Positions 10,777 through 45,643 of a stretch of DNA of 64,000 nucleotides are shown piece by piece. A program made the position numbers and the translations under genes. Source of the DNA: Paenibacillus sp. FSL H8-0548 (lineage in GTDB: Bacteria > Bacillota > Bacilli > Paenibacillales > Paenibacillaceae); NCBI RefSeq assembly GCF_038630985.1, contig NZ_CP152049.1, positions 1,569,501-1,633,500 on the forward strand, written 5' to 3'. The notes beneath the pieces are model-generated. The model searched no databases. It was not told the origin of the DNA and saw only the letters and a list, made by a program, of their open reading frames with translations. How positions within the stretch are numbered: position 1 is the first letter of the stretch; every line of letters starts with the position of its first letter.

Positions 10777-13700
10777 ATGAAGCGAAGTTTAATATGTCTC
10801 TTAGTCCTTACATTAGCACTCGGAAGTATGGTCAATATTTTTGGTGAAAGTACAATCGCGAATGCAGCCACTTTAGTAAATCCAATACTTACTTCAGCTG
10901 CTTCGAAGTTATCTATCCCTAACTCCGAGAATATCCGAGGCAATATTACATTACCCGCCCAGATCGATGTAGATGGCAACAAGGTGAATATGACATGGGA
11001 GTCTTCAAACAAGGAGATTATTACAGACAAAGCAACAGGCAGTAAAGGAGAAATTCCCTCTGGAGTCGTCAAACGGCAATCTGAAGACCAGCAGATTAGC
11101 TTAACCGCAACACTCGAATATAACGGTGAGACGGTACAGAAGGTTTTAGGTTTAACTGTAAAGAAAGCGGCACAGCTTGATGAGTTAAAAGGCTATATTT
11201 ATACTTATTTCCGTTCAAACCTGTATGGAACAGGCGAGAGCCAGCAGATCCACCTTGCGTCAAGCAAAGACGCTTTGTTCTGGGATGATCTGAATAAGAA
11301 CGAACCGATACTTACATCTACATTAGGGACGAAAGGCGCTCGAGATTCTTTTCTCATCCGTTCCCCAGAGAATGATAGATTTTATCTTATTGCAACGGAT
11401 TTAGATGCTAACGGGGGACAATGGGGCGATTACAGCAGCAAGGGAAGCAAATCGATGATGATCTGGGAATCAGATGACTTAGTTAATTGGTCGGATGAGC
11501 GGATGATCGAGATCGCCCCGGCAGAGGCCGGGAATATGTGGGCGCCAGAGGCGATTTATGATTCTTCAACCGGAGAGTATATCATATACTTTGCATCCAA
11601 TGTAGCAGGAGTGGGACATCAAATTTTTTATGTGAAAACACGTGATTTTTACAATTTTACGAGCGCTGCCGTTTATAAAGCCAAAACAAGCGATTCTACT
11701 TATATTGATACGGCGATGACCGAGTACAACGGAAAATATTATCGATTCACGAAAAAAGAAAAAGATAATACTGTATTTTTGGAAAAAAGTGATTCTGCGC
11801 TTGGTAATTTCCAATTAGTGAAAGAGACTGTCGGAGGGCAAGGCGGTGTTGAAGGGCCAGCAATCTTCAAGCTCAACGGGCAAGAAAAATGGCAATTGTT
11901 ATTAGACGGATATACGGGCAGCAATTCAGGTGTTGGCTTCTTCCCGTTAATTGCGAATAGCGAAGCTGATTTAGCTGCGGGTAACTTTACAAGACTAGCA
12001 GGTACGGAATATAGAATGCCAACTGGTGCGAAGCACGGTGGTATTCTGCCTGTTACTCAGAAAGAATACGACGCTGTTATGGCGAAATGGGGAAAAGATG
12101 TCGTTCAGCCAGTAACGCCAGATACAAGCGATGTCATCGTACCCGACCTGCAATATAAGTTTGACGAAATCCTCCAAGGAACAACTGTAGTCAATACAGG
12201 GGCTTCAGGTGCAGCTAATAACGGAGCTCTTTATAATGGTGCAGCTTATAAGACGGATGCTGATAAAGGGAATGTGCTCAGCCTTGGCGGTGGAAATGCG
12301 AATACGAACAGCCCGTATCTCGCTTTCCCAGAAGGCTATTTCGATGGTAAAGACAATGTATCGATTATTATGGATGTCCATTCTCAAATGGACAGTCAAT
12401 TTTTCTTCACATTAGCAATCGGGCAAGACAACTTCAAATACTTATTCCTCCGCACAAGGGCTAGTGAACTATATTCGGCGTTAACCTTCCAATCGAATGG
12501 GAAAGAACAAAAAATTACGGCGCCTCTAAGCACTTCCATGAAAAATGTTTGGACGAATGTCGCGATTGTATTACAGCGCAATGAAGATGGCAAGCACAGT
12601 ACGATGAAGCTCTATAAAGATGGTGTGCTTATTAATCAAGTGACCGATCTAGTTGCCAACCTGTCTACACTCGGAAGTAATCTTAAAGCTTATTTAGGCA
12701 AATCGTTCTACGCAGACCCTTACTTTAAGGGCTCTTATGACAATGTTCGTGTCTATAACAGGGCGCTGACAGATACGCAGATTAGTCAGGTATATAATCA
12801 GCCAGTAACGGTTCCTGGTGATGCAGAAAAGGTGGACCGTGCAATAGCTGAATTGAAAATTCAGAATGCGAATGACGTTCGTGGCAATCTAACCTTGCCA
12901 ACCAGCAGCCCAGAAGGTGCGAGCATTGCTTGGAGTACGAACAGACCAGATGTGGTTAGTGTCAATCCAGTCGTTAATCAGAATTACGACGATATGCCTG
13001 GAGGGATTGTAACGAGGCAGGCTGCGGATACACAGGTGACCTTAAAGGCAACCGTTACTTATGGGACAGCAAGTCAGACAAAGGATATTCCGATTATAGT
13101 TAAAGCCAAACCAGAGGAATTGGTTTACAAAGCGTATTTATTCGACCACTTTGTTGGTGAAGGCAACAATGGAGAGCAGGTTTATTTTGCAAGCAGCCTA
13201 GATGGTTTGCACTGGAAAGATTTGAATGATGGCTCACCTGTACTGACGTCTAATATAGGAGAACAAGGTGTTCGTGATATGTACCTGCTGCGTACCCCGG
13301 AGGGTGATAGGTTCTACCTCTTGGCAACCGATTTGAGTATTTATCATAGAGGCGGATGGAGCGGGACACAAACAAACGGAAGCAAGTCGCTCATCATTTG
13401 GGAATCAACGGATTTGGTCAACTGGACTGAACCAAGAAGCGTGGAGGTAGCACCATCTAATGCAGGGATGGCGTGGGCGCCAGAGGCAATCTACGACGAG
13501 ATGACCGGCGAATATATCGTATTCTGGGCTTCTAATGTAGAACCGGCAGGAAAAGCCTCGGAGCCTAAAATCTTTTATGCTAAAACAAGAGATTTTTATA
13601 CGTTTACGCCAGCTGTAGAATGGATCGATCGGGACAATCAAAGCATCATTGATACGACGGTGATTAAAGCAAACAACAAGTATTATCGGGCTTCGGCTGA

Positions 13701-15534
13701 TGGTCAGATTACGTTCGAGGAGAGCGATCAGCTTCTGGGTACATGGAAGAAGACTCGAACTCTCCAAGAAGTGGGGTTAACCGGCAGTAATGTTGAGGGG
13801 CCGGAAATCTTTAAATTCAATGATAGAGAGGAATGGGCAATCCTTGTCGATCAGTATGCGACTGGTAAAGGTTATCTGCCGATCGTAACTTCCGATCTAT
13901 CAACGGGAGCATTTAGAAAATTGGATGCTTCAGAATATTCGTTAGACTCGGCGAAGAAGCGTCATGGTTCAATTCTCAGCATCACACAAAAAGAATACGA
14001 CGCAATTATGGCTAAATATTATAAGGTTGTGCAAGCACCAGATGAAGAGGAACAAAAAAATCCGGTTCTGGAATACAACTTCGATGAAACTAGCACGAAT
14101 GGTAAGATCCAAGATGCATCGGGCAACCAACGCGATGGCACATTGTTCGGAAATGCGACGTATGTGACGGATGCTGACAAGAACTCCAAAGTACTCTACT
14201 TAGACGGTACGACTAATACGTATGCTGCGTTCCCAACAGGCTTCTTTGATGGCAGAAGCACGGTATCGATCTCTATGGATATGAAAGCGGAAACGGTTTC
14301 TGGTAATTTCTTCACCTTTACGCTAGGACAAAATGACTCCAGATACATGTTCCTTCGCACGAGAGACACCGAAATTCGCAATGCGATTACGAAAGGCAGT
14401 TATTCTACTGAGCAAGAAGCGAAAGCGACAACGCAATCTATTAAGAGCAAGTGGATGAATATCAAGCTGATCCTTACACCTACAAGTATGAAAATTTATA
14501 AGGACGGCGTATTGATCGCAGAGAATAACAATGTAGGCATAGCGATTTCAGAGCTAGGCAGCAATTTATTAGCTTACTTAGGCAAATCGTTTTATGCAGG
14601 AGACGCTTATTTCAAAGGTTATTTCGATAATGTTAAGGTGTATAACCGCGCACTCTCCGCGTCTGAAATTGCAGGAGAGGATGAGCCGGAGGCTCATTCA
14701 AATACAGCAATCCTCAAAGGAGCTTCAAATGTGAATAGTGGTCAAACCTATGAAGTGACGTATGGATTGACTAATTTGTTGACAACGATGTACGCCAATG
14801 ACTTGACCATTCACTTTAATCCAGCAGAACTGCAGTTCAATACTGTGGAGGCTTTGCGCGAGGGCATATCGGTAGTGGCATCTACTAAATCCGTTTCTGA
14901 GGGAAAAGTACGTATTCTGCTATCCAGCCAAGGGGAATCGAATGCGGTCAAGGGAACGGCGGATTTGTTGAAGCTGAAGTTCACAGCTGTAATAAGCGAC
15001 AAGTCTATAACGAGCAAAGTATATCTGAGCGATGTAATTGTCGCAGATAGTCAAGGTATCGAAACTACGTTGAGCAGCGGAAATACTTTACAAGTGCAAA
15101 TCAATCATACGGTTGTTGATAAAGCAGCACTTGCCCAGATGGTTTCTGACGCGCAGTCCCTATACAACACGTCTACGGAAGGCTATCAAGTTGGTCAATA
15201 TCCAATAGGCACCAGAACAACTCTTAACGGAGCTATTGCTGCTGCTCAAGCGGTTGTCGAAAAAGACGATGCAACGCAGCAGGATATAACGGTTGCTATC
15301 GATCAATTAAGCGCTGCGATACAAGCATTCCGTAATAAGATTAACACTTCGATTATTGGAGACCTCAACGGTGATTCCCGCTACAGTATCGGAGATTTGG
15401 GTATGGCTGGACTTGGGTATGGCTTAACATCCGCATCTGCGAATTGGGATGCTTACAAGAAAATCGATATGAACAATGACGGCAAGATCGATATTATCGA
15501 TCTGGCAACGATCGCGAGATTGATTTTAGGATAA
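10777..15534 (+). CDS. Secreted tandem GH43 enzyme with cohesin, FIVAR and dockerin
   Basis: 1585 residues. Approximate order: signal peptide 1-30; atrophied bacterial Ig-like domain 31-137; GH43 domain 138-438 (WAPEAIYD, GVEGPAIFK); LamG 454-675; Ig-like 682-778; GH43 domain 781-1085 (WAPEAIYD, NVEGPEIFK); LamG 1094-1301; cohesin 1309-1444; FIVAR 1447-1524; type I dockerin 1528-1585. The first two thirds are an internal duplication of Ig-GH43-LamG. Both dockerin loops keep every calcium ligand position (DLNGDSRYSIGD and DMNNDGKIDIID). It should be a secreted arabinosidase or related exo-enzyme able to bind, and be bound by, partner proteins. The next gene follows after 33 bases, so the two form an operon. 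Exact GH43 substrate is not decided. Confidence 0.85.
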   Translation: MKRSLICLLVLTLALGSMVNIFGESTIANAATLVNPILTSAASKLSIPNSENIRGNITLPAQIDVDGNKVNMTWESSNKEIITDKATGSKGEIPSGVVKRQSEDQQISLTATLEYNGETVQKVLGLTVKKAAQLDELKGYIYTYFRSNLYGTGESQQIHLASSKDALFWDDLNKNEPILTSTLGTKGARDSFLIRSPENDRFYLIATDLDANGGQWGDYSSKGSKSMMIWESDDLVNWSDERMIEIAPAEAGNMWAPEAIYDSSTGEYIIYFASNVAGVGHQIFYVKTRDFYNFTSAAVYKAKTSDSTYIDTAMTEYNGKYYRFTKKEKDNTVFLEKSDSALGNFQLVKETVGGQGGVEGPAIFKLNGQEKWQLLLDGYTGSNSGVGFFPLIANSEADLAAGNFTRLAGTEYRMPTGAKHGGILPVTQKEYDAVMAKWGKDVVQPVTPDTSDVIVPDLQYKFDEILQGTTVVNTGASGAANNGALYNGAAYKTDADKGNVLSLGGGNANTNSPYLAFPEGYFDGKDNVSIIMDVHSQMDSQFFFTLAIGQDNFKYLFLRTRASELYSALTFQSNGKEQKITAPLSTSMKNVWTNVAIVLQRNEDGKHSTMKLYKDGVLINQVTDLVANLSTLGSNLKAYLGKSFYADPYFKGSYDNVRVYNRALTDTQISQVYNQPVTVPGDAEKVDRAIAELKIQNANDVRGNLTLPTSSPEGASIAWSTNRPDVVSVNPVVNQNYDDMPGGIVTRQAADTQVTLKATVTYGTASQTKDIPIIVKAKPEELVYKAYLFDHFVGEGNNGEQVYFASSLDGLHWKDLNDGSPVLTSNIGEQGVRDMYLLRTPEGDRFYLLATDLSIYHRGGWSGTQTNGSKSLIIWESTDLVNWTEPRSVEVAPSNAGMAWAPEAIYDEMTGEYIVFWASNVEPAGKASEPKIFYAKTRDFYTFTPAVEWIDRDNQSIIDTTVIKANNKYYRASADGQITFEESDQLLGTWKKTRTLQEVGLTGSNVEGPEIFKFNDREEWAILVDQYATGKGYLPIVTSDLSTGAFRKLDASEYSLDSAKKRHGSILSITQKEYDAIMAKYYKVVQAPDEEEQKNPVLEYNFDETSTNGKIQDASGNQRDGTLFGNATYVTDADKNSKVLYLDGTTNTYAAFPTGFFDGRSTVSISMDMKAETVSGNFFTFTLGQNDSRYMFLRTRDTEIRNAITKGSYSTEQEAKATTQSIKSKWMNIKLILTPTSMKIYKDGVLIAENNNVGIAISELGSNLLAYLGKSFYAGDAYFKGYFDNVKVYNRALSASEIAGEDEPEAHSNTAILKGASNVNSGQTYEVTYGLTNLLTTMYANDLTIHFNPAELQFNTVEALREGISVVASTKSVSEGKVRILLSSQGESNAVKGTADLLKLKFTAVISDKSITSKVYLSDVIVADSQGIETTLSSGNTLQVQINHTVVDKAALAQMVSDAQSLYNTSTEGYQVGQYPIGTRTTLNGAIAAAQAVVEKDDATQQDITVAIDQLSAAIQAFRNKINTSIIGDLNGDSRYSIGDLGMAGLGYGLTSASANWDAYKKIDMNNDGKIDIIDLATIARLILG

Positions 15535-15567
15535 TGGATTACAAAAGTATAATCAGGAGGAAAGAAC

Positions 15568-18500: not shown

Positions 18501-20136
18501 ACAATCTTTGCTTGCTGAGAAGGAAGCAGGCCGAGCTGAAGCTGCTAGTGTCAGCTTTGTCATCGTAGCTAATGATCAATACGAGCTTGCCGCAAACCGG
18601 CAGACGAATCAATCTACTGTTGGCATATACAATGGCAAATCGTACAGGGATGCGCTGGCTAACGGTTCGTTTAGCTATGATATGGAAGTAACTCCGGGTG
18701 TTGCGAACTATTTGTTCAGTACGTACTATAGCGGCGATGCAGGCAGGAAGTTTGATATTTTTATTGATGATACTAAGCTTGTGTCTGAAAGCATTGAGAA
18801 TCGTATTCCGGGTAATTTCTATAATCAGACGCGGAAAATCACGCAACAATTGGTAGAAAGCAGCAGAACGAAGACGGTACAAGAGTCGGATAAGTACGGT
18901 AATCCCGTACAAAGAACAGTTCATTATGTTACTGTCAAATTTGCAAGCAGCGGAGGTCTCGTAGGCGGCCTATTCGATATCTTCCGGGTAATAACCGACT
19001 ATAAGACAAATCCGAGTTTGAAATCATTGACCTTCACAGAAGGCAATTTATCACAGGAATTTGATCCTGAAGTTACTGAGTATACGTTAACTGTTCCGAC
19101 CGCAACGGAATCGATTACGATGAATGCTCAGCCAATGGACGAATTTGGCTTGGTATATTATGGTGAAATATTAATTAATGATAAGGTAACTCGCAATATA
19201 TCGTTGACGGGCGATTCGACTGAAATTGTGTTGACGGCTAAAGCCGAAGATCATACGACCTCCAAGCAATACGCAATTCATATTGTAAAGAGTGATGAGG
19301 CGGCATCGAATCCGCTCACCATTTCAGGAGCAGCAAGCGTCGTATCCAATCAAATCTTTGATGTGATGGTCAGTTTGAATATGGAAACCGCTGATGTTTT
19401 TGCGAAAGATTTGACCTTCAGCTATGACCCAAGTAAAGTGGAGTTTGTTTCAGCAGAAGCACTTAAGCCGGATTTCATCATTGTAGATCAATCGGAAACG
19501 TTAGGGAAAGTACGTTTGTTGACGGTAGATCTTCATCCTGAGAAAAATACGGAATCCCCGTTTAGCGTGCTAAAGCTTCAATTTAAGGCAAAGGAAATTA
19601 GTGAAGCACAATCAAGCAGCATTACGATGTCAGATATTGTTTTTGCTAATGGCAGCGGAATGGAAAGTGCAATATCAAATCCAAATCCGTACCTATTTGA
19701 AATCATCGCAGGTATAACGAAGGATGCCTTGAATGACGCAGTCGGGGCTGCCCAGAGCCTCTATGATGCTGCGGTAGAGGGAACTCATACCGGCCAATAT
19801 CCAGCAGGATCAAAAGCATCGCTTTTTGCAGCTATTCAGGATGCGAAAGAGGTATTAAACGATAGTACTGCTAGCCAAGCACAAATTAATCAAGCTGCTG
19901 AGCGAATAAGTACTGCGGTTCAACTGTTTAGATCACTTGTTAATACTCAAGTGCTGGGAGATTTAAATGGAGACAATGTGGTTCGAGTCGGGGATCTAGC
20001 AATCTTAGCTTCGCATTATGGGATGACCTCATCAGATCCCGAGTGGAATAAATTCAACTCAGCAGACTTTAATAAGGATGGTAAGATAGATATCGAAGAT
20101 ATAGCTGCTATTGCTCGTTTGATTTTAGGTGAATAA
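15568..20136 (+). CDS. Secreted GH127/GH146 beta-L-arabinofuranosidase with cohesin, FIVAR and dockerin
   Basis: 1522 residues; strong AGGAGG ribosome site. Order: signal peptide 1-31; LamG 40-265; Ig-like 268-358; GH127/146 catalytic domain 364-975; DUF6805-like beta-sandwich about 990-1146; cadherin-like sandwich 1149-1245; cohesin 1248-1383; FIVAR 1387-1460; type I dockerin 1463-1522. The catalytic core has DETC (E663, C665) and WCCTGTGMENF (C732, C733). These match the zinc-binding Glu/Cys set of bifidobacterial HypBA1, where the first Cys of the pair is the nucleophile. Both dockerin loops are complete (DLNGDNVVRVGD, DFNKDGKIDIED). The target is probably beta-L-arabinofuranosides of plant glycoproteins or pectin side chains. 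It is co-transcribed with the tandem GH43. Confidence 0.88.
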   Translation: MKYQRKLGIWALTVVMLSSNLLAGQTLFAANVNSNTLALLDASKVLSLKFEDNVQDSSAKGNNGTISGVNYSYVPDVDGGKALKLSGSTFVDLGKSGTLQPADLTVSFWIKPNETMTGEQMLMWNKTSYYSDGWYLTSESDSKPLAISLGSSEANRQPYKVNITGSRNNFFPIDAWTHVAITYNNLTKAVKIYRNGILQTITIENPTGVSGADGVIKSDDTTSKSLGYNGPQYNGAYAKYSLDDYFVYSTAASYEAIVALYEDKSGTSFDYELVARSDAEAIVLPEKASSDIALPLIGKSESTISWVSSNVDVIDLLGGVQRPAAGESDASVILTANVSFGSKSVTRDFIVIVPAMKSSSDSLEAVPMADVTLTDSYYANAFKKEVDYLLSLEADRLLSAFRTTSGLNPKAAVYDGWENTEIRGHTLGHYLSAISTAYVNATGADKARLKERMDYIIDELAACQDANGNGYISAFPTSFLDKVENGQAVWVPWYTIHKILAGLVSAAEFGDNPKALQIAEKFGEYIYNRTATWNEAMKSRVLSVEYGGMNDSLYDLYSLTDNNHFLKAAEKFDEISLFNSLYNNVDILNGKHANTTIPKVIGALKRYTVLDESEIEEYYLQVAENFWEMVVKHHSYVTGGNSENEHFGHSDVLEAELTNVNDETCNVYNMLKLTRELYKITKDKKYADFYENAFTNSIISSQNPETGMTMYFQPMDTGYFKVFSSAFFHFWCCTGTGMENFAKLNDSIYFTSKDSVYVNQYLSSIVKLSDKNLVITQQSQLPNTGIGDAATGIVAFTINTTGPTNTTLRFRIPDWAKTTPRVKLNGAVSQDYAIEGGYLVFTKNWTDGTTITLDFPMEVIGFDLPDAKNTVAFKYGPIVLSAGLGTKDMQTQTHGVNVLKPNKDTSAKNFITILGHDIELWKENVAQNLVKTDGKLEFTLKGTDADDGILTFSPHFARYEDRYGIYFDLITADSLSYQQSLLAEKEAGRAEAASVSFVIVANDQYELAANRQTNQSTVGIYNGKSYRDALANGSFSYDMEVTPGVANYLFSTYYSGDAGRKFDIFIDDTKLVSESIENRIPGNFYNQTRKITQQLVESSRTKTVQESDKYGNPVQRTVHYVTVKFASSGGLVGGLFDIFRVITDYKTNPSLKSLTFTEGNLSQEFDPEVTEYTLTVPTATESITMNAQPMDEFGLVYYGEILINDKVTRNISLTGDSTEIVLTAKAEDHTTSKQYAIHIVKSDEAASNPLTISGAASVVSNQIFDVMVSLNMETADVFAKDLTFSYDPSKVEFVSAEALKPDFIIVDQSETLGKVRLLTVDLHPEKNTESPFSVLKLQFKAKEISEAQSSSITMSDIVFANGSGMESAISNPNPYLFEIIAGITKDALNDAVGAAQSLYDAAVEGTHTGQYPAGSKASLFAAIQDAKEVLNDSTASQAQINQAAERISTAVQLFRSLVNTQVLGDLNGDNVVRVGDLAILASHYGMTSSDPEWNKFNSADFNKDGKIDIEDIAAIARLILGE

Positions 20137-20166
20137 TTAAAAATAAAAACAATCAATATTTTTCAG

Positions 20167-20351: not shown

Positions 20352-21383
20352 ATGAAAACAATCACCATTTATGATATTGCAAGGGAAGCGGATGTTTCTG
20401 TATCGACAGTATCGCGTGTACTTAATGGAACAGCGCCAGTCAAAGTGAGTACGCGAGAGAGAATAATGCAAGTTATTGAGAAACATCAATTTCAGCCAAA
20501 TGCGTTAGCTAGAAGCCTGACAAAAAAAGAAACTGGAACGATAGCGATGATTTTGCCTGATATTACAAACCCTTTTTTCCCTGAAGTATTCTGGGGTGCT
20601 GAGAATAAAGCAAGAGAAAAGGGCTATACTTTTTTCTTGTGCAATACGGCAGGCGATTATAGCCGTGAATCGGAATATCTGAGTATTTTAAGAGAAAAGC
20701 GAGTCGAAGGCATCATTTTTTTAGGCGGGCGCATTAATTTAACAAATTGTCCAGCGGAGCTGCAAAAGGAAGTAGTTGAAGTAGATAATCATATACCAAT
20801 CGTACTTGTAAACGGCAACCTGCCTAAAAGTGGTTTGCATCGAATATACACTGACGAAGCGGAAGGCGCGGCGATTGCTACGCAGCATTTAATTGATCTT
20901 GGACATCGGGATATCGCATTCATTGGTGGATTGGAATTTATGAGTACGACAAGCCAAAAGGTAAAAGCAGTAAGAAAAAAACTAACGGAGTATCAATTAT
21001 CATTGCGCAAGGAATGGCTGCTTTATGGAGAGTTCTCTGTTCGGGCGGGCCGCGATTTGATGAGTAAACTGCTGGAGGGAGAGCAAAGGCCGAGTGCGGT
21101 CCTTTGCGTGAATGATTTTACAGCAATTGGAGCCATAAAGGCTGCATTGGAGCATGGCTTGCGCATTCCACAGGATATTTCTATTGTCGGCTTTGATGAT
21201 TCTCCTTTATCTACAGCTGTCATTCCTGAGCTGACGACAGTGACCCAGAATACGAATGATTTAGGGAGCCTTGCAGTAGAGACCATCCATCAAATCGTAA
21301 ATGGCAATAAAACAAAACGGAATATGGTTTTGCAGCCTGAGCTTGTGATCCGTCAAAGCACCGGCCCGTTTCGAAAGCGATAA
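20352..21383 (+). CDS. LacI-family transcriptional regulator
   Basis: 343 residues. The N-terminal helix-turn-helix (ITIYDIAREADVSVSTVSRVLNG, residues 4-26) is classic LacI, followed by a hinge (LARSLTKKETGTIAMILPD) and a periplasmic-binding-protein-like sugar domain to the C-terminus. It sits just after the cohesin/dockerin operon and 8 bases before the next gene, so it probably belongs with genes for arabinoside or galactoside use. Operators of this family are cre-like palindromes; the perfect one at 10372-10391 is a candidate target, which is inference only. Confidence 0.92.
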   Translation: MKTITIYDIAREADVSVSTVSRVLNGTAPVKVSTRERIMQVIEKHQFQPNALARSLTKKETGTIAMILPDITNPFFPEVFWGAENKAREKGYTFFLCNTAGDYSRESEYLSILREKRVEGIIFLGGRINLTNCPAELQKEVVEVDNHIPIVLVNGNLPKSGLHRIYTDEAEGAAIATQHLIDLGHRDIAFIGGLEFMSTTSQKVKAVRKKLTEYQLSLRKEWLLYGEFSVRAGRDLMSKLLEGEQRPSAVLCVNDFTAIGAIKAALEHGLRIPQDISIVGFDDSPLSTAVIPELTTVTQNTNDLGSLAVETIHQIVNGNKTKRNMVLQPELVIRQSTGPFRKR

Positions 21384-21391
21384 GAAACTTT

Positions 21392-22087: not shown

Positions 22088-22098
22088 GAGATGATTGT

Positions 22099-23361: not shown

Positions 23362-23399
23362 GCCATTATACATGGTTTATTTAGAAGGAGGCAGGCGTA

Positions 23400-24860
23400 A
23401 TGATCGACCAAATAACGGATTTAGTTACTTATCCAGTTCCTTGCGGCATCTTGGAAAATCAGACTTATAAAGTCAGAGTTCGCAAGGAGTATGGGGAGTG
23501 GCAGCAGCAGTTTGTTTATTCCGTACCAGTGGATATGCATAATGTTCGTGAAACGTCGATGGTTGCTTTCGATTTTCACGGTACGGTGGAGATCGAGGTA
23601 ATGATGCTGGGAGGCAATTTAGAGCAAGTCGAAATTCGGCCGAGCAGCTTGGAGATAGATTTCAGGCATGAAGGCAACAAGGTCTGCTTCAAGCTGGATC
23701 GTCCAGCGAAGCTGTCCCTTGAGGCAAACGGTGACCGGTTCAGCAATCTTCATCTGTTCGCCAATGAGTTGGAGAAGGATGTCCCCGATTTACACGGACA
23801 AGAAACAGTGAATCTGCAGCCGGGCAATCATAGATCGGTTGACCTGCTTGAGAGATTGCAAGCCTTAAAGGAAGGGAGAGAAGAGCGGACAGGAAAGGCG
23901 TTTGAGGTGCTTTATTTTGGAGCTGGCTTGCACGTATTGGATGATCCACAGCTCTATGTCGCTTCCGGAACGATCGTATATTTGGCGGCTGGAGCAGTCG
24001 TTGCAGGCTCTATCGTGTGCAGCCATGTGGAGGATGTGATCATTCGAGGACGCGGGCTGCTGTATATGAGAGAGTTTGAAAAAATGACGTATTATCGCGG
24101 TGTGGAAATCGAGTTTTCTCGCAACATCACAGTTGAGGGGATTACACTGGTCGATCCGCCACATTACAGTATTTTTCTCGGCAAGTCGGAGCATGTAACT
24201 ATCCGAAATTTCAAGTCGTTCAGCTCTCGGGGCTGGTGCGATGGCATCGATATGATGTCCTGTTCCGATATTTCAATCGAGGATGTATTTCTTCGCACCT
24301 CGGACGATTGTATCGCGATTTACGGTAGACGCTGGGCATACGAAGGAGATACAACAAATATAACCGTCAAAAATTCCGTGCTGTGGGCGGATGTTGCGCA
24401 CCCGATTATGATTGGGGCCCACGGGGATTATGAGCGAAACGGAGATATGATTAGAAATATCGTATTTGAAAATATTGACATTTTGGAGCATCATGAGCCG
24501 CAGGATGGGTATTGGGGCTGTATGACGATTAACGCTGGCGACAAAAATACAGTCAGCGACGTCCTCTTTCGAAATATTCGTGTAGAGCAATTTGAGCTAG
24601 GCCGCTTAATTGATATCCGAGTGTTCCATAACCCGAAGTATAACCCGGCTCCCGGAAACCGGGTCGAAAATATTCGTTTTGAAAACGTCAGCTTTAATGG
24701 CCTATGTGACAATCCGTCCATCATCGAGGGCTTTGATGAGAAACGGATCGTTGACGGCATTCAATTCGTTAATTTGCGGATTAACGGTGAGCAAGCGCAT
24801 GATGCAGACACTGCCAATTTGATTATTGTTAAACACGCGGAACGTATTCATTTCAGTTGA
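23400..24860 (+). CDS. GH28-like right-handed beta-helix glycosidase (intracellular)
   Basis: 486 residues, AAGGAGG ribosome site, no signal peptide. The N-terminal 150 or so residues form a beta-sandwich; from about 170 onward repeating beta-helix turns carry GH28 landmarks: CDGID (C280-D284), SDDC (S301-C304, catalytic Asp pair) and GAHGD (H341). The usual RIK motif of polygalacturonases is replaced by RLIDIRV, so the substrate may not be plain polygalacturonate. GH28 members cleave galacturonate links in pectin and rhamnogalacturonan. Lacking an export signal, it likely degrades imported oligosaccharides. It precedes an AraC regulator and a sugar ABC transporter. Confidence 0.8.
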   Translation: MIDQITDLVTYPVPCGILENQTYKVRVRKEYGEWQQQFVYSVPVDMHNVRETSMVAFDFHGTVEIEVMMLGGNLEQVEIRPSSLEIDFRHEGNKVCFKLDRPAKLSLEANGDRFSNLHLFANELEKDVPDLHGQETVNLQPGNHRSVDLLERLQALKEGREERTGKAFEVLYFGAGLHVLDDPQLYVASGTIVYLAAGAVVAGSIVCSHVEDVIIRGRGLLYMREFEKMTYYRGVEIEFSRNITVEGITLVDPPHYSIFLGKSEHVTIRNFKSFSSRGWCDGIDMMSCSDISIEDVFLRTSDDCIAIYGRRWAYEGDTTNITVKNSVLWADVAHPIMIGAHGDYERNGDMIRNIVFENIDILEHHEPQDGYWGCMTINAGDKNTVSDVLFRNIRVEQFELGRLIDIRVFHNPKYNPAPGNRVENIRFENVSFNGLCDNPSIIEGFDEKRIVDGIQFVNLRINGEQAHDADTANLIIVKHAERIHFS

Positions 24861-28469: not shown

Positions 28470-28497
28470 TGAAGCTATGGAAAGGAGTGTGCTTGAG

Positions 28498-34300: not shown

Positions 34301-37088
34301 CATTATTGCAAATGACGGTGAAGCCACTTCGGTCGTTAAGAGAAAACTTTATGTATTCGAGGATGCGGATGCAGTCATTTCCAAAATAACAGAGGGCTAT
34401 GATCCGGCTGTAAAATATGCGAATCGTACGCTGAAGCCATATCAGATGGCGCTCACGCTAGTAAATAGTATAAAGGGAGACTTGGATGAAAGCTTCTATG
34501 AAGCATTGGCTATTTTGAAGGAAAAGGTAGATCTTCTTTGGTCGCTCGATGCTATTCAAAGAGAAAACGGCACTCTTAATATAGTAGGCTTTACCGATAT
34601 TGTGACCTCTGACGGTAAGGAAGGGAAATCAACATTTGCTATCGCTGAAGATAACGATCTGAATACCTCGCCTGATATGCGTCTTAATGGCACGGGTGCA
34701 GGCTGGATGGTGCTGGATTTCAAGGAGGGCTACGGGGTTCGCTTGAGTAAGGTGGATCTGGCGGCGAGAACAGGCTTCGCGGGACGGATAAATGGGGCTC
34801 GAATCGAGGGATCTAATGACTTGGTCACTTGGAAGCAGCTAACAACGGCAGCGGCTAACACCGAGGCATGGCAAAGCTTCCCGGTAACGGATCAGGAGAC
34901 ATACCGTTATCTTCGAATGAGCAATCCCGGAAACAGCTGGTATGGCAATATTGGCGAGATTAGGTTTTATGGCATTTATGATGAAATCATTGTTCTGGAT
35001 GAAATTAAACAGGTTTCCATTTCATCTAATCATTCGAATTCCACTATTGCTGCTCTTGGCGATACGGTAACCTTGTCCTTTGTTTCTAACGAGGTCATTG
35101 AAGGGGTAACGGCTACAGTTAACGGCAATGTGATCCATGCCGAATCGGCAGACGGCTTGAACTGGCAGGCACATTATGTGGTTGGAGAGGTCTATATGAA
35201 AGGAAAGATCAATTTTTCAATTGCTTATAAAAACGGCAAGCCAGTTACGCAAACAACAGATGCATCCGCGGTTACCCTTATCGAAGAAAACGGACTCATC
35301 AAGGACGTTGTGAGCAAAGCAGTGTTTATCGACTCAACGCCTAACCGAACGCAGGAAGCGTCTGCCTCACAAGTTCAGGCCTTGTTTGATAATGATCCAC
35401 TGAATACGTCAGATTTCCGGGGAAATAACGGCAGCGGCGGTACTAACGGCGCGGGCTGGATCGTATTCGACTTTAAAGCAGGCTTTGGCGTGAAGCTGAA
35501 TATGATTAAGCTGCTTGCGCGGCAGGATCAGCTCGTCCGTGCGAATGGTGTTATTTTCCAAGGATCGAATGACAATTTGACTTGGACAAACTTAACAGCA
35601 GGCGCGCAAAGCATGGCAAGCTGGCAAAGCTTTGCTGTGACGGATTCCACGACCTATCGTTATTTGAAGCTGAGCAATCCTTCAAACGGTTCTTGGTTTG
35701 GCAATCTCGGTGAAGTAAAACTATACGGTCAGGTAATTGATCGCAAAGCCGCCTTAACGCAAAAGCTGGCAGAAGCGAAGGCTTTGAACGAAGCGGCCTA
35801 TACAGCCGAGAGCTGGGCTGCCCTTGCAGCGGCAGTTGCTCAAGCCGAAGCTGTACATCAAGAGGCTGATCCAGCGGATCTCGTTATTCAAGCTGCAGCA
35901 GCGGTGATCGGAACGGCTATTGCCGGATTAGCGATTGTCGAGGAACCTGCGGCTCCAGCAGCAGTAACGTTAACTGGAACGGAGCAAGCACTTACAGGAG
36001 AGGAAATTGAACTGACGGCTGCTCTATCAGGCAGTGTGGATGCTTTTACGGTCATGGATGCCATTGTTCATTATGATCCAGCCAAGCTGACTTTTGTAAC
36101 TGAAAGCTGGGAGGATGGAGAGGTTGCGCTAGCGGATGAAGCAATCATCTCGCATAGAGACGGCTTACAGGTGATTGGCACAAGAGTGAAGCAGGCTGAA
36201 GGGCAAATACGGATTATTATGGCAGCGGCAGGGGAGCAGTACGCGGTGGACGAGGCAGGAGCTTTGTTTACGCTGAAGGGGAAAATAAAGGCAGATGCTG
36301 AAGCGGGCATCATGACGGTTTCTTTAACCGATTTCACAGTCTCCATTAACGAAAATGCTAGTGTCTTGGATACGTTGGGCGCTTCTCTGACCATAGAGGT
36401 GAGAGTGGCGGACAAGGCGCAGCTCATCGCCATCATTGTTCAAGCCAAGCAGCTGTATCAAGCTGCAGTGGTAGGCACAGCAGCAGGTCAATATTCACAG
36501 ACGGTAAAAGACGCCTTCGAGGAAGCGATCGAAGCAGCGGAAGCGGTAAGCGCGGATTCGGGAGCAAATGAGACAGAGGTGAGCGAAGCCGCCGCCGCAC
36601 TCAGCTCGGCGATCAGCGTATTTACAAGGGCAGTGAATCCGACCGTACCGGTTGATCCAGCTAATAAAACAGCATTAATTGCTGCGATTAATGCAGCACA
36701 GGCTAAGTATGATCGTGCAGTTGAAGGAGAAAAGGTGGGCCATTACGAGATAGGCTCCAAAGCGGTGCTGCAGACTGCGATTAGCGCTGCTGCCGTGATC
36801 CGAAATCATCCATCCTCCACGCAAAGTGAAGTGGATTTGGCAGTGACTGCCTTGAATCAAGCTGTAGAGAGCTATGCTAAAAAGATCGTTTCACTAGTAG
36901 AGGGAGCCGTGCAAATTACGATTCGTGATTTGTCGGTCATCGCGCAGTACTTCGGGACAACGAGCCAGAATACAGCGGACTGGAGCAAGGTGAGCAAGGC
37001 TGATATTTACGGTGAAGATCAAATTACGATACGTTCGCTTGCAGCGGTCGCTCGTATGATTTTGTCGGATTGGATGATTGAGGAATAG
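31341..37088 (+). CDS. Secreted alginate-lyase-like multimodular protein with cohesin, two FIVAR and a degenerate dockerin
   Basis: 1915 residues. Order: signal peptide 1-34; alginate-lyase-like (alpha/alpha) toroid about 64-460 with GRDQPH (G310-H315); two CBM6-like sandwiches about 475-637 and 660-904; putative Ig domain 904-1010; helical linker 1012-1072; F5/8-type C (CBM32) 1077-1213; Ig-like about 1215-1330; second CBM32 1334-1465; FIVAR-like 1467-1534; cohesin 1539-1687; FIVAR 1691-1767; FIVAR 1776-1850; dockerin-like 1853-1915. The final module keeps the helices (ITIRDLSVIAQYFG, LAAVARMIL) but has lost most calcium ligands. The toroid probably depolymerises a uronate-containing polysaccharide, with several glycan-binding modules holding the enzyme on it. 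AAAGGAG precedes the ATG. Confidence 0.82.
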   Translation: MKRFRTGKMRMLYMIMLSLFILVSSIPSITIFAQESIAGNDASSHEIDTIITDFKPQAVPVVSEEGFTHPGIYVTAENLNVMQEMVREGYEPWASAFEQFRRDSRAQKDYKLQNEDGNGNPYIDFLPPGTGSKPVRFDADAAYAQTIMWYVTGDSAYRDNAIKIIRAWYTSLRQVTEAEGYDWSADVLSAGMSTNKFSFAAEILRYTPGSGWTEEDTVGFTQYLDYLWPMYNRDEQFMNQGSVALMGFMSSAVFRDDADDYAKAIDRATVNSASQNSARGFSIEDQMRMVTYNAATGEAVEPHVQLVEMGRDQPHAEGDVAGLSNAAQIAYAQGTLVNENGEIAEDGTTLFEFLDKRIMKATNQYSKYNLGYAIDWTPVYAGWTNWEDPVNASGDIYNVVATNGRYRLGLESVVYYHYKYKLGVNENDPDFKYIKQAKELYGLEISGQDNIANSDLLLAPIEAKTGEPLGAPRPIIEAGYLDNIAGFDRFQASEFDGKSGQGILEDYRDEYGLRQITSGFKKNEYMWYKDFDFGNEPVNSIILNSGSNSEAGSHVQMILLDQVEGIDYTNVTAADLAKGEIVADFYSGATGWWTTLSSKSEKLLKELSGTHSFALLMLGSTNVYGLQTNMDWISFARSYAHETNEAEAADEFVNGATRSSAKAIMPNGSAISYKMMDFDYGTAALEANLSTTGAGVLEVRKDAIDGPLAASYSLPNTNGVSRKVQLAATESDDIIKLLGKNDVYLVYKGEGALELDTYRNFRLVQSAVFPKIQSESYTTLREGLAAKEAEGSISFVRTAAGNQPVALVYFNNSFGEGIDTFSIRLRSNGIATIEIANETGNNDGIVFKPYAKLLIPNTEGEWTTVAYDMSESQANPTGTQVIYVTVNGAQVDLDYMQFNADNHAPVIQNPSFESGILSLPPDSEGVVTDYLIAGNEYRSTYSALDKENDHIEFQVQNLPAGAEFNQESNTLSWTPQAEEANKGQSIYIIANDGEATSVVKRKLYVFEDADAVISKITEGYDPAVKYANRTLKPYQMALTLVNSIKGDLDESFYEALAILKEKVDLLWSLDAIQRENGTLNIVGFTDIVTSDGKEGKSTFAIAEDNDLNTSPDMRLNGTGAGWMVLDFKEGYGVRLSKVDLAARTGFAGRINGARIEGSNDLVTWKQLTTAAANTEAWQSFPVTDQETYRYLRMSNPGNSWYGNIGEIRFYGIYDEIIVLDEIKQVSISSNHSNSTIAALGDTVTLSFVSNEVIEGVTATVNGNVIHAESADGLNWQAHYVVGEVYMKGKINFSIAYKNGKPVTQTTDASAVTLIEENGLIKDVVSKAVFIDSTPNRTQEASASQVQALFDNDPLNTSDFRGNNGSGGTNGAGWIVFDFKAGFGVKLNMIKLLARQDQLVRANGVIFQGSNDNLTWTNLTAGAQSMASWQSFAVTDSTTYRYLKLSNPSNGSWFGNLGEVKLYGQVIDRKAALTQKLAEAKALNEAAYTAESWAALAAAVAQAEAVHQEADPADLVIQAAAAVIGTAIAGLAIVEEPAAPAAVTLTGTEQALTGEEIELTAALSGSVDAFTVMDAIVHYDPAKLTFVTESWEDGEVALADEAIISHRDGLQVIGTRVKQAEGQIRIIMAAAGEQYAVDEAGALFTLKGKIKADAEAGIMTVSLTDFTVSINENASVLDTLGASLTIEVRVADKAQLIAIIVQAKQLYQAAVVGTAAGQYSQTVKDAFEEAIEAAEAVSADSGANETEVSEAAAALSSAISVFTRAVNPTVPVDPANKTALIAAINAAQAKYDRAVEGEKVGHYEIGSKAVLQTAISAAAVIRNHPSSTQSEVDLAVTALNQAVESYAKKIVSLVEGAVQITIRDLSVIAQYFGTTSQNTADWSKVSKADIYGEDQITIRSLAAVARMILSDWMIEE

Positions 37089-37131
37089 ATATTTCCTTCC
37101 ATGAATCACAACTTATTCTGAATAGAACCAG

Positions 37132-37173
37132 AACGCAGCCTAGCTCTTATTAAGCGCTAGGCCGCGTTTTTTT
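37132..37173 (+). terminator. Rho-independent terminator after the 1915-residue gene
   Basis: 13-bp arms with one wobble (AACGCAGCCTAGC / GCTAGGCCGCGTT), ending in seven Ts. Confidence 0.85.
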
Positions 37174-37229
37174 AATCCTTCTTTCTATGTTTGATCTCGT
37201 TTCTGCAAATTGAAAAAATTAGAATCAAA

Positions 37230-37275
37230 ATGAATGATATTACAATATTTTAAGCGTTTTCATTATGGTAAGGTT
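37230..37275 (+). promoter_or_regulatory. Shared promoter block, copy C (2411-residue protein)
   Basis: ATGAAT, TTACAATAT, TAAGCGTTTTCA (37251-37262), then GGTAAGGTT. It supports a translation start at 37318 rather than at the far upstream end of the open frame. Confidence 0.65.
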
Positions 37276-37317
37276 TACATTACAAATAAATGTACACTTA
37301 GGAGGATGTTCTCAAAA

Positions 37318-43300: not shown

Positions 43301-44553
43301 ACGAAGCAATGGCGATTCTTTCAGATGCACCGCAAAGGCTGGTAGATGCGGCGGCAGCGAATTTGCAAGCTGCATTAGTTGGATTGACTACAATAACTCC
43401 TGTTCAGGAGACGCTAACTGCCGTACTGAACGGACAAGAGCAAGCGGTCATTCAGGAAGAAGTCGCGATGAGCATCGGAATTGCAGGATTGCTGCAAGGC
43501 TTTAACGCACTTGATTTAATTGTAAGCTATGATCCTTCCAGACTGGAGTTCGCAGTGCAATCGGATGAAGCAGGGGAGGCAGAAGATGTAGAAGTCTTCC
43601 TATCCGTAGACGATAATGTCATTGTACCGCTTCAAGAAGGATTGCAAGTCATTGGAACTAAGATTGTGCCGGAGCAGGGGAAGATTCGTATTATTATGGC
43701 CGTTGTTGATCCAAACGCCATTATGCAGGACGGAGATTTGTTCGAGCTGCGCGCGAGGGTGAGGGCGAGTGCTGAGCTTGGTGCGACAAACGTATCGTTA
43801 AGCGATTTTAACGTATCATTGAACGGTAATTTCAATACGGTCAATACAGAAGCTGCAACGCTGACTACAGTAATAAAATTAGCGGATAAAGCAGCATTAA
43901 ATGAATCGATTGTTAGCGCTGGGCAGCTTTATGCAGCTTCCGTTGCAGGCTCGCAGCCAGGACAATATCCGAGCAGCGCCAAGGAAGCTCTAGCACTCGC
44001 AATTGGAGATGCGAAGGCTGTACAGTCCTATGCTGGAGCAAGCGAAGCTGAGGTGAGCGCGGCTGTTCATGCATTAAGCGAAGCCGTGCAAACGTTCAGA
44101 AATTCCGTCAATTCGGAAGTCAGTAATCCTGCGGACAAAATAGCATTAATTGCTGCGATTGCTGCCGCTCAAGCAAAGTATGATAAAGCGGTAGAGGGTG
44201 TCAAAGTCGGCCAATATGCTATCGGTTCGAAAGCAGCGCTGAAAATCGCAATTGATGCGGCGGTATTGGTTAAAAACAACTCGTCGGCGAGTCAGTCGCT
44301 AGTGAATCAGTCTGCTCAAACTTTAGATGCTGCTGTTCAAGCATTCTCTGCTAAGTTTATAGCTTTGGTAGAAGGTGCAGGCAAAATTACAATTCGCGAC
44401 TTATCGTTTATCGCAAAGTACTTCGGTACCAAAGCGAACGACGCAAATTGGAATATGATCGAGAGAGCGGATATCTATGGTGACGAGATTATCAATATCC
44501 GAACTCTTGCTGCCGTCGCAAGAATGATTCTTGACGATTGGGCAACAGAGTAA
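37318..44553 (+). CDS. Giant secreted multimodular protein with unrecognised helical catalytic-like domain, cohesin, FIVARs and degenerate dockerin
   Basis: About 2411 residues from the ATG at 37318 (GGAGG 12 bases upstream; the frame is open back to 37234, but that stretch holds the promoter block). Order: signal peptide about 1-47; beta-sandwich 61-218; large helical domain about 248-875 rich in W/Y/G motifs (GGHQGDWGGYYGALGEALY, GVDWAGGELTRREAWERV), followed by a beta region; fibronectin III 925-1020; DUF1349-like jelly roll 1028-1218; fibronectin III 1223-1325; CBM32 1395-1528; FIVAR-like; two putative Ig domains 1597-1771; CBM32 1825-1955; FIVAR 1960-2026; cohesin 2028-2188; two FIVAR 2192-2265 and 2275-2348; dockerin-like 2349-2411. 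The helical domain may be an (alpha/alpha) toroid lyase or hydrolase, but I cannot name its family. Confidence 0.78.
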   Translation: MNSMSLETNQKSNRSALVKKLTAGILAAVLFISLLIPMPGQSTYVEAADGNLSANYMDKLIFGNPASENEHVFKGASTVVITGGLGAKARVSKPLTPVEAQGGDLIFKMKVDPHEQNYFTLKFWGDDSSSYTSTVNINGEQVGYYRKGDYQAINMGNSKALPGRFFYNTVMLPIESTNGLDTVEITIKTLNIFGKMEADSRGYYNAYTHTQPSLNVSSEVQGEEPAGDPAAILASEPTEVEKQALLAGYTQGQINQFNGFSSKVDASSNAKLSIVRYQDELRFYANALSYDWSLANSPELKQAAIKRIFKVIDNHVKDYYGDTRLVLRGGHQGDWGGYYGALGEALYIVENLIKDDGIYGEQVFNDFLDEAFVTGTVEGPYSLAGVDWAGGELTRREAWERVLKANFDFARSRLSNIYNQILYTYEGAWEAHEGLRLINSSYYEGKQRSREILLEALGARPFLGEEVLVGPNGEELDVYHSLFYHDATAQFTDDYVYIIGKGLAKSKLDDNGNVVRRLPFGEFFTGITDAGLTRENNYVGNYGEAANYLPEYVYKTANHEGDEQLNDEILKLALKNIYARGFTRYTELDDNGKRIMRMEQVIDERNPGLQGVYAYATRVSEGRALLFASLEKYMIQNEANYSGPEWEAAWKHASAAVGFVQQQIADHQFFQYFGNLSYKVDYQVEDTYRYITEERSNYDRFDSVSAGVVHPLTDFDYYTQDELASLEVEAADYEQLAWVDVDAMFVALRDGDTTIFGALNELNRGFVGNGRLHVLNGNYDHIVQIATNAKFQYEDYYLRMDNVDVDYMSDQAANASGFPQALAGEIAPITYQPGVGEVIRDNFEVDHAYAGYPDLLTARYGQYFMIFNSTRDEYGNKQTFEVEIPADYTGAEVLDLVTGQNIPVVNGQVSVSPMSALVLKLTSDIEIGRKPFHVDFSKALAGNNYAVVTWKRTSGAESYTIKRSETENGVYSIIAEDVQGSSYKDETAINGKTYYYIVTAVNKNGPGWDSYRAEVVMNLPITAQTATKWRDDRIGDVTAGMASIAENEISIEGADGEGFGTGDDYIIERRDINDSLHYVNQAIAGSVSLTAKVNSYSGAFSGIMLRDSLDSNTRYIYFGADEDGILTLQNRTRDSRHQWSNLTASPYSAGSLGLTADDYPYLRLVRDADSHLITAFVSKDGEDWTFVRQLFTPFAHALFAGVAAAEQASFSDVSVVETERGVIAPYIVKAKDNVALYWNKPKQAASFELYRTNDAAAGATDPVFIGTTSELAGGSPWTAVVKGNTKTFFQEASLKYGNFYYKVRAVYGDGTYGAFSETVSVQADSILTVMADAENLASEDYTKASYYLFVQELDRIKGEMAKPEFDEEQLILDIYQAHTLLVSYRTLLTRIPVEQSMVKASTLGYGNDNISAEQNGWYSFDSTLSTFTNTRLAESWITLDFGMGNEKTVDTVRFHGRTGYISRVNGSIVQGSQDGINWTDLYTMAGAVDYQWYSGIVSSPVAYQYIRVYDNHAGYSNYAEIELLEMGMDRTLLTYLLNEAEAVEASIYTEESLANLAQEAASAKLIFDAADALQAAVDDAANRLQTAFAELKYLEGVPVLAPIGNKTITAEGTLSFLVRAEKAEENLQFSVQNLPSGAVFNAETQSFSWTPGIHQGGEHNITFTLSSGEKQSSRIVKITVLGGPIITQAPSTELVSGSAFSLKLNATDPLGEKLSYSVEGLPVGAVFNAVNGELSWKPENKDVGIHSVIFHVTNGRFTVSQTVQLNVTIPSVLYTKGSYYIFDQAWTPIESELMKPGASREQLAGDIARAVALLVPVSTLSEKIVVTSDMVTSSSVSYDNKLTAALNGWQAYDGNTATFTDAKTNPAWISVDFGEGHAKGIAAFRFYPRNTKAEHIARVNGSSLQGSNNETDWMNLYSINGITEGKWYTVDTTDVSAFRYIRYYSPTGNANVAELELFKKLRDNTLLELLLEEAEGKEAARYTEESYSRLVAAIDEAMAILSDAPQRLVDAAAANLQAALVGLTTITPVQETLTAVLNGQEQAVIQEEVAMSIGIAGLLQGFNALDLIVSYDPSRLEFAVQSDEAGEAEDVEVFLSVDDNVIVPLQEGLQVIGTKIVPEQGKIRIIMAVVDPNAIMQDGDLFELRARVRASAELGATNVSLSDFNVSLNGNFNTVNTEAATLTTVIKLADKAALNESIVSAGQLYAASVAGSQPGQYPSSAKEALALAIGDAKAVQSYAGASEAEVSAAVHALSEAVQTFRNSVNSEVSNPADKIALIAAIAAAQAKYDKAVEGVKVGQYAIGSKAALKIAIDAAVLVKNNSSASQSLVNQSAQTLDAAVQAFSAKFIALVEGAGKITIRDLSFIAKYFGTKANDANWNMIERADIYGDEIINIRTLAAVARMILDDWATE

Positions 44554-44566
44554 CATCACAATGAGC

Positions 44567-44590
44567 AAGGAAGGCAGAGCTGCCTTCCTT
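44567..44590 (+). terminator. Short hairpin after the giant gene
   Basis: 10-bp perfect stem AAGGAAGGCA / TGCCTTCCTT with a 4-base loop, but no T-run. It could be a weak terminator or an RNA-stability element before the anchor gene. Confidence 0.4.
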
Positions 44591-44647
44591 TGCTGCAATT
44601 ATAACTAACTCTATTTAGCCTATTCAGATGCAGAAGGAGATCATGAA

Positions 44648-45643
44648 ATGATGAACAAACGAATTCAAACGACAGCCCTGCTCTTGTTCTTATGCGTTAT
44701 TTTACTGCTGCCTTCCACGGCTGCAGCAGCAGAAACCCCAGCAGCTCCTGTCTTTGCTATGGACGTTGAATATTCCGGCAAAGAGGCAACGGTTGCGATA
44801 ACAGGAAAAGGACTTAAAGATGTTTATGCTTACCATATTTATTTGAATTTTGATCCGAAGAAGCTGAAGCTTAAGCAAGGAACTAGTGGATTTTCCGGAT
44901 TTACTGTAGCGCCTATTATCAACGGCAGCGAAATACAAATGGCTCATACGAAGGTTGGGCCTGTTGCTGGTCTAGACGGTGATCTAATGCTTGCTACGCT
45001 GACCTTTGAAAGAGTTACAGCAGGCGCTGCGGAGCTTAAGCTCAATCGTATACAGCTGGTCGATTCTGCTCTGGATATGAAAACCTATGAGCCAAGCATC
45101 ACTCATAAGCTGCAGCTCTTTAGCGATCTCGCGGGACATTGGGGCGAGTCTGCTATTTACAAGGCTTCTGCGCTAGGATTCGTTAACGGCTATACGGACG
45201 GAACCTTCCTTCCCAATCGCAGCGTTACGCGGGCGGAATTCGCTGTTATGCTCGCACGTGCCTTGCAGCTCCCACCGGAAAAGGAGTTTGCGTTTGCTGA
45301 TGCAGCACTTATTCCGGACTGGGCTAGAGAATATGTGGCGGCTTCAGCGAAGAAAAAATGGATTACCGGGTATGAGGATCAAAAATTTTATGCAAATCGA
45401 CTCATTACGCGAGAGGAAATGGCTGCTATGATCGTTCGTGCTGGAGGCTTTGACACGGCTGCTGAAGCTGTAACGTCCTTTACTGATGATAAGAGTATTT
45501 CGTCCTGGGCAAGGACCTATGTAGCGACGGCTCAACAAAAATCTATCATTCAAGGCGTCGGAAATGGACGGTTTAATCCTCAAGGCAAAGCGACACGTGC
45601 CGAGGCGGTTACCGTGATCCTGAAGCTTCTTGAAGAGAAATAG
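44648..45643 (+). CDS. Cohesin-SLH surface anchor protein
   Basis: 331 residues, AAGGAG ribosome site. Signal peptide about 1-27 (ends AAAAE); one cohesin at about 35-158 (beta-strands with YHIYLNFDPKKLKLKQG and GDLMLATLTFERV); then three S-layer-homology domains at about 160-205, 220-266 and 275-331 (DLAGHWGESAIYKASALGFVNGYTDGTF; FADAALIPDWAREYV; SFTDDKSISSWARTYV, each with a TRAE/TREE motif). SLH triplets bind pyruvylated secondary wall polymer, and cohesins bind dockerins, so this is a minimal wall anchor for dockerin-bearing enzymes. It follows the giant gene by 94 bases. It is the smallest protein in the set and has no linker, enzyme or glycan-binding module. Confidence 0.9.
   Translation: MMNKRIQTTALLLFLCVILLLPSTAAAAETPAAPVFAMDVEYSGKEATVAITGKGLKDVYAYHIYLNFDPKKLKLKQGTSGFSGFTVAPIINGSEIQMAHTKVGPVAGLDGDLMLATLTFERVTAGAAELKLNRIQLVDSALDMKTYEPSITHKLQLFSDLAGHWGESAIYKASALGFVNGYTDGTFLPNRSVTRAEFAVMLARALQLPPEKEFAFADAALIPDWAREYVAASAKKKWITGYEDQKFYANRLITREEMAAMIVRAGGFDTAAEAVTSFTDDKSISSWARTYVATAQQKSIIQGVGNGRFNPQGKATRAEAVTVILKLLEEK

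Follow-up and report, generated by a model that had tools for sequence, protein, structure and literature searches.

A 64,000-nucleotide stretch of the Paenibacillus sp. FSL H8-0548 genome (contig NZ_CP152049.1, positions 1,569,501 to 1,633,500; here referred to as the window) encodes four large proteins, P1 to P4, each ending in a cohesin, one or more FIVAR domains and a dockerin, and a fifth protein, P5, in which a cohesin is followed by three SLH domains. We think it probable that they belong to a surface-tethered, scaffold-free cohesin-dockerin system, in which enzymes would be chained via each other's cohesins and tied to the cell wall by SLH-cohesin anchors. Each enzyme would bring one socket, the chain cohesin, and one plug, the C-terminal dockerin, set zero to three FIVAR lengths apart, and a small protein with the other cohesin type would be held on the wall by its SLH repeats. 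The cohesin of this wall anchor would take the dockerin of a first enzyme, whose free chain cohesin would take the dockerin of the next one, so that enzymes for one or several substrates could form short chains on the cell surface.

The tails of P1-P4 and the make-up of P5, both first described in an initial annotation made from the letters alone, were confirmed by Pfam and by our own models (Table 1). These models were built without the protein under test and run on 234 open reading frames (ORFs) of the fetched regions; each module tested was recovered by them, and a chance origin of the window modules was thus rejected. For L083, the dockerin match was not C-terminal and was disregarded. Pfam detected cohesins in P2, P3 and P4 and weakly in P5, FIVAR in P1-P4 and three SLH domains in P5. 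The P1 cohesin was absent from this protein scan, yet it was found by a genome search with the same family. As for the Pfam dockerin, it passed the cut-off in P2 only, with sub-threshold matches in P1 and P4, and the P3 dockerin escaped Pfam but was detected by our held-out model. Position 37318, given for P4 in the same annotation, is an in-frame methionine at residue 29, counted from the first ATG at 37234. Signal-peptide-like starts are visible by eye in the translations, and the window proteins are probably secreted. P1 and P2 are separated by 34 bp, and P4 and P5 by 95 bp.

By sequence, P1 and P2 are arabinofuranosidase-type enzymes, with NCBIfam names below the respective cut-offs (1.7e-114 for the alpha-arabinofuranosidase model in P1), and P3 carries an alginate-lyase-like domain (Pfam 4.6e-6). 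No catalytic match was found in Pfam, NCBIfam or, by sequence, solved structures for the N-terminal 1,600-1,700 or so residues of P4 (37234-42300), which possibly represent an unknown enzyme class.

The nearest solved relatives of the chain cohesins are the NagJ and NanJ cohesins (about 1e-14), and that of the P2 FIVAR-dockerin is the NagH FIVAR-Doc (6.7e-19; 37% identity). PDB entry 2ozn is, by its title, a complex of the NagJ cohesin with the NagH FIVAR-dockerin of Clostridium perfringens; thus, such a tail unites in a single protein relatives of the two partners of a known complex. The predicted structure of the P2 tail (predicted local distance difference test score, pLDDT, 93.5; predicted template modelling score, pTM, moderate at 0.70) matched cohesin and FIVAR-dockerin structures, and that of P5 (pLDDT 92.5) matched cohesin and SLH structures. 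Anchor cohesins separate from chain cohesins in the tree with 100/100 support, and their nearest, though weak, match is to the type II cohesins that serve in anchoring (3e-5). In the proposed system, the dockerins would bind both cohesin types, and between molecules.

The host contig is complete (7.35 Mb), and we searched all of it with our own models for the chain cohesin, the anchor cohesin and the dockerin. It has 9 anchor cohesins, 20 chain cohesins and 20 dockerins, the 29 cohesins lying in 28 proteins. All nine anchors are SLH proteins bearing a cohesin (P5 and eight others), and each has a cohesin-dockerin gene as its direct neighbour or separated from it by one small gene. All the chain cohesins and all the dockerins sit in the same 19 proteins, 18 of them enzymes or presumed enzymes with one of each and the last a connector; a dockerin without a cohesin was not found (0 of 19). 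All but P4 of these 18 have a catalytic-type Pfam family, and the set, with GH43, GH51, GH127, GH53, PL11 with two GDSL esterases, GH2, GH3 (twice), GH5, GH30 and GH141/esterase, looks suited to pectin side chains and hemicellulose.

A hidden classical scaffoldin was rejected, as the search of the whole genome found only one protein with two cohesins, the connector. The absence of a multi-cohesin scaffoldin from the window, as initially annotated, thus extends to the genome with this single exception, and no classical scaffoldin accounts for its cohesins and dockerins. The self-assembling, wall-tied complex proposed in that annotation held as far as its architecture is concerned, by stoichiometry, adjacent SLH anchors, tail homology and the lack of a scaffoldin, whereas the linking itself stays conditional; nothing contradicting enzyme linking or surface tethering was found in the genome-wide analysis. 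The connector (L075:7671-8948) is a non-catalytic 425-aa protein of the order cohesin-dockerin-cohesin-dockerin that adjoins an SLH anchor, and it is possibly a chain extender or branch piece. Other SLH proteins were considered and rejected as members. For a metallophosphatase-SLH protein (L084), the Pfam cohesin reached 24.9 bits in the genome search, barely above the cut-off, and 21.7 bits, below it, in the whole protein, and our own model gave 0.033; two SLH-NEAT-FIVAR proteins (L088, L089) and an SLH-LRR protein (L090) had no cohesin or dockerin match.

The system is also present in relatives, for which all genus and order counts refer to the matches listed, the order sample having been scored on at most 11 candidates per genome. 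Across 51 genomes of the genus, at least 289 chain cohesins stand against at least 293 dockerins (r=0.989, slope 0.99), with equal numbers in 29 genomes and numbers within one of each other in 45. At E <= 1e-10, an anchor cohesin was found in 37 of the 42 dockerin-bearing genomes and in none of the nine genomes lacking dockerins. In the order-wide sample, at least 122 of 392 genomes and 20 of 49 genera have anchor-type cohesins, while a sample of the phylum (1/398), which lists just six other family members, has one in our own genome only. These numbers bear on the idea that the cohesins mainly catch the dockerin enzymes of other species, which was raised for Paenibacillus guangzhouensis, in the section of a survey devoted to it, since nearly all dockerins there sit in cohesin proteins (PMC11557425). 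The agreement between dockerin and chain-cohesin numbers means that the genome provides partners of its own, and we regard such scavenging as highly improbable.

For the gene neighbourhood, up to 20 kb was taken around 100 anchors of relatives (80 from the genus, 20 from elsewhere in the order), together with 12 regions of our own genome; the relatives' regions were picked from the listed, better anchor matches, and the figures apply to those. The 112 regions hold 258 module proteins, of which 18 cut by a region end were left out. Among the 240 complete ones were 125 with one cohesin and one dockerin, 111 anchors with SLH, the one connector type (cohesin-dockerin-cohesin-dockerin), one cohesin-dockerin-dockerin and 2 with a dockerin only. 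The cohesin is N-terminal to two or three SLH in all 111 anchors, and the dockerin is C-terminal in 124 of the 125 cohesin-dockerin proteins. A dockerin gene lies within the region for 102 of the 111 anchors (median gap 78.5 bp), at 500 bp or less for 90, all 90 on the same strand. This closeness, as well as the distinct clades of the two cohesins, would also suit a simpler display, in which dockerins bind the SLH anchors, one enzyme each, and the chain cohesin has lost dockerin binding or has a different ligand. However, it is the chain and not the anchor cohesins that resemble the proven dockerin-binding NagJ cohesin, 126 of the 129 complete dockerin proteins have retained a chain cohesin (a further one being a doubtful case), and our genome has 9 anchors vs 20 dockerins. 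We consider one-enzyme display unlikely.

The distance between cohesin and dockerin is quantised (n=125), with 49 proteins at -5 to 5 aa, 52 at 72-81, 20 at 149-159 and 4 at 232-235, which are zero, one, two and three FIVAR lengths. The spacer is of no FIVAR size in 5 of our 18 enzymes. Such spacing is relevant to another alternative, in which the chain bends back so that its cohesin holds its own dockerin, or two copies exchange dockerins, and the dockerin is hidden until an anchor or partner competes for it. That cohesin and dockerin nearly always share a chain, and that their types match within it (see below), agrees with self-capping; but a tail that has no spacer in 49 of 125 cases and one to three FIVAR lengths in the other 76 seems ill suited to folding back, and we hold this somewhat less likely even than one-enzyme display. 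Two closely related pairs of an anchor and a GH3-cohesin-dockerin protein in the same genome (L076:7393-12013 and L082:6813-11500) have no FIVAR between the modules.

Dockerins fall into classes by their calcium ligands. All ten ligand positions are intact in 86 of 137 dockerins, and a leucine occupies the first loop-1 ligand in 28, here the 'deg' class. In the window, P1 keeps 10/10 and P2 9/10 positions, whereas P3 and P4 keep only 4 or 5 of 10, with the loop-1 positions L, E, A, T and D identical in both; the P3 and P4 cohesins are also longer than those of P1 and P2, and their spacers have two FIVAR lengths. In the 125 complete proteins, 'deg' dockerins coincide with exactly one chain-cohesin clade (27/27; one change; Shimodaira-Hasegawa-like approximate likelihood ratio test, SH-aLRT, 99). 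Since the anchors are separate genes, their association with the dockerin class means more than this match within a gene. When the class of the adjacent dockerin is mapped on the anchor tree, 5 changes are needed vs 18.7 after shuffling (0 of 500 shuffles as low), and P5 lies within a supported clade of 17 rows, 14 'deg', 2 mixed (P5 being one) and 1 unlabelled. The association gives moderate support to a pairing of anchors with dockerins.

A more far-reaching picture is only tentatively put forward, and is less probable than the tethered system itself. The complex, of a kind not recognised before and spread through the order, might form linear, self-scaffolding enzyme copolymers growing from SLH-cohesin anchors, with FIVAR spacers of fixed length (0-3 units), and a cell might use at least two plug-socket codes, one calcium-dependent and the other, served by separate anchors and chain cohesins, calcium-independent; both would be present in the window. 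If chains do grow, the system would amount to a naturally occurring polymer of enzymes that assembles by itself at set distances, and the ligand-poor dockerin class makes calcium-independent pairing readily testable.

Several observations weigh against these proposals. The match between dockerin class and chain-cohesin clade may reflect common inheritance in one gene, and 6 of 20 'deg' anchor rows, in three small groups, fall outside the main anchor clade. When near-copies were merged at 60% or 50% identity, the association persisted but became weaker, as 57 and 71 of 5000 shuffles gave an equally high value. Several ligands are missing from some of the dockerins assigned to 'Ca' (e.g. L079, L208, L217 and L229), dockerins without most ligands might be non-functional, and chain cohesins could be self-occupied or bind another partner. 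In our genome, the fetched region contains no anchor for 2 of the 18 enzymes (L074, L079), and among relatives 9 of 111 anchors have no dockerin gene in theirs. The two dockerin-only proteins and the cohesin-dockerin-dockerin protein depart from the one-to-one rule, the 'cohesin' of the latter being merely 44 residues with 22 bits, and Pfam giving Doc-fn3-Doc. Among the matches listed, chain-cohesin and dockerin counts differ by more than one in 6 of 51 genomes, and in G024 a single chain cohesin is present without any dockerin. No anchor reached 1e-10 in 5 of the 42 dockerin genomes (G002, G014, G034, G035 and G047), which have 1-2 dockerin matches each: G014 has no anchor match whatever, and the weak matches of the other four (best 7e-5 to 2.6e-7) we take as cross-matches to chain cohesins. 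Such cross-matches inflate the anchor counts of the genus-wide comparison, which gives 15 for our own genome, 9 of them true.

The system is a new variant of the non-cellulosomal cohesin-dockerin complexes, widespread and coherent, with a strongly suggested step of chain formation, and partly described before in one species. It shares with the NagJ/NagH-type (X82) complexes of C. perfringens (Adams et al. 2008, cited in PMC12997984) a related chain cohesin, of X82 type, and a related FIVAR-dockerin (in P2, a FIVAR followed by a NagH-homologous dockerin), one cohesin per glycosidase and the lack of a scaffoldin. In C. perfringens, the modules are mostly on different enzymes, with five cohesin and five dockerin glycosidases and one bearing both, as does one of Akkermansia muciniphila, according to the relevant passage of a 2026 paper (PMC12997984); here, 19 of 19 dockerin proteins carry their own cohesin. 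Dedicated SLH-cohesin anchors are found here, whereas for clostridial NanJ attachment through an FN3 domain has been postulated. A classical cellulosome with an SLH anchoring scaffoldin has likewise cohesin-dockerin modules, SLH-cohesin anchors and carbohydrate enzymes with dockerins, but has a multi-cohesin primary scaffoldin, while here there is none and the catalytic subunits bear the cohesins. The earlier description of the complex as unlike the classic cellulosome was correct in this sense, yet precedents exist in C. perfringens and P. guangzhouensis.

For P. guangzhouensis, the 2024 survey counts 35 cohesin proteins, 28 with a single dockerin-cohesin pair (many with GH), and five SLH-cohesin anchors, considers the surface potentially different from that of conventional cellulosomes, terms the species a 'scaffoldin-containing microbe', and names dockerins that escaped detection, or scavenging, as explanations (PMC11557425). 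With many single cohesin-dockerin enzymes and several SLH-cohesin anchors, against 18 and 9 in our genome, it is very probably, likened by description, the same system. Section 15 of that survey gives no one-to-one rule, two cohesin clades, ligand-poor class or wider distribution, and for these and the spread through the order we found no earlier report in the openly licensed literature. The survey, as its selection step is described, filtered on multi-cohesin proteins (PMC11557425), and genomes with only this system, which belong to a large group of soil bacteria, were therefore passed over. GASdb (2010), in its passage on Paenibacillus sp. JDR-2, had reported four SLH proteins and no dockerin domain, and suggested an unknown mechanism of biomass degradation (PMC2838879). 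The genome matched to JDR-2 (G028) has at least 8 dockerin and at least 9 chain-cohesin matches, with a cohesin-dockerin gene beside the anchor in 7 of 7 anchor regions examined, which offers an answer to this puzzle. The complex of Paenibacillus curdlanolyticus B-6 is also a surface-linked multienzyme complex of the genus that involves an SLH protein; in the description in PMC6823336, the S1 core lacks a cohesin and the major xylanase lacks a dockerin, and assembly needs glycosylated S1. Unlike S1, P5 and the eight other anchors of our genome have a cohesin.

Table 1 Features of the window
Feature	Position	Strand	Description and evidence
P1	10777-15534	+	1585 aa; GH43/arabinofuranosidase-type enzyme, LamG and aBig modules, tail cohesin-FIVAR-dockerin
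P1 chain cohesin	14698-15096	+	Pfam genome search E 3.7e-10; held-out own model 1.2e-32
P1 FIVAR spacer	15124-15327	+	Pfam E 1.8e-4, below cut-off
P1 dockerin	15334-15531	+	Full calcium-ligand pattern; held-out own model 3e-24
P2	15568-20136	+	1522 aa; GH127-type enzyme (Pfam GH127 1.4e-104), tail cohesin-FIVAR-dockerin
P2 chain cohesin	19312-19698	+	
P2 FIVAR spacer	19723-19923	+	Pfam E 2.3e-5, below cut-off
P2 dockerin	19930-20133	+	FIVAR-dockerin pair related to NagH FIVAR-Doc
LacI-family regulator	20352-21383	+	Pfam; probably regulates the locus
GH28-type enzyme	23400-24860	+	GH28 the sole Pfam family found in the protein
AraC/dCache regulator	25063-27276	+	
ATP-binding cassette (ABC) permeases, two	27495-28469, 28435-29367	+	
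Solute-binding protein	29453-31066	+	
P3	31341-37088	+	1915 aa; alginate-lyase-like domain, CBM6, F5/8, cohesin, FIVARs, ligand-poor dockerin
P3 chain cohesin, 'deg' clade	35955-36398	+	Pfam 1.9e-9; clade 100/100, SH-aLRT 99
P3 FIVAR spacers, two	36414-36866	+	
P3 dockerin, most calcium ligands replaced	36867-37085	+	Ligands LEATD / DYETS; own model without 'deg' class 8.5e-13
P4	37234-44553	+	2439 aa from first ATG; F5/8 and Ig-like modules, cohesin, FIVAR(s), ligand-poor dockerin
P4 chain cohesin, 'deg' clade	43411-43872	+	Pfam 1.2e-6
P4 FIVAR region	43885-44340	+	155-aa spacer, length of two FIVARs; first FIVAR Pfam 0.0063, below cut-off
P4 dockerin, most loop-1 calcium ligands replaced	44341-44550	+	Ligands LEATD / DYDNT; held-out model 4.1e-15
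P5 wall anchor	44648-45643	+	331 aa; signal-peptide-like start, anchor cohesin, three SLH
P5 anchor cohesin	44747-45112	+	Held-out own model 1.3e-36; cohesin matches in fold search

Since regulators, a GH28-type enzyme, ABC permeases and a binding protein lie between P2 and P3, the locus looks like one for carbohydrate use; two further genes in this interval were assigned no Pfam family. Directly upstream (1869-7480), GH43, GH5 and rhamnosidase-like enzymes have no cohesin or dockerin match, and thus only part of the local carbohydrate enzymes would be in the system. The protein at 8097-10181 (- strand, opposite to P1) is alginate-lyase-like, of the same catalytic family as matched in P3, and has ricin-type and AbfB arabinose-binding modules; Pfam found neither cohesin nor dockerin in it. 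Searches of the window with Rfam and with an exact promoter pattern gave no matches.

Three very long frames (2,500-3,300 aa) with FIVAR (L085:1413-11396, L086:9929-18736 and L087:5944-13398) left our cohesin and dockerin models silent, and those of L086 and L087 also have SLH matches. In a relative, a 1452-aa protein (L193:3317-7675, - strand) has a long N-terminal part before its anchor cohesin and SLH triplet, and appears to be an anchor joined to a larger unit. A 267-aa Doc-fn3-Doc protein of a distant relative (L230:10936-11739, + strand) adjoins an anchor and is possibly a double-plug linker.

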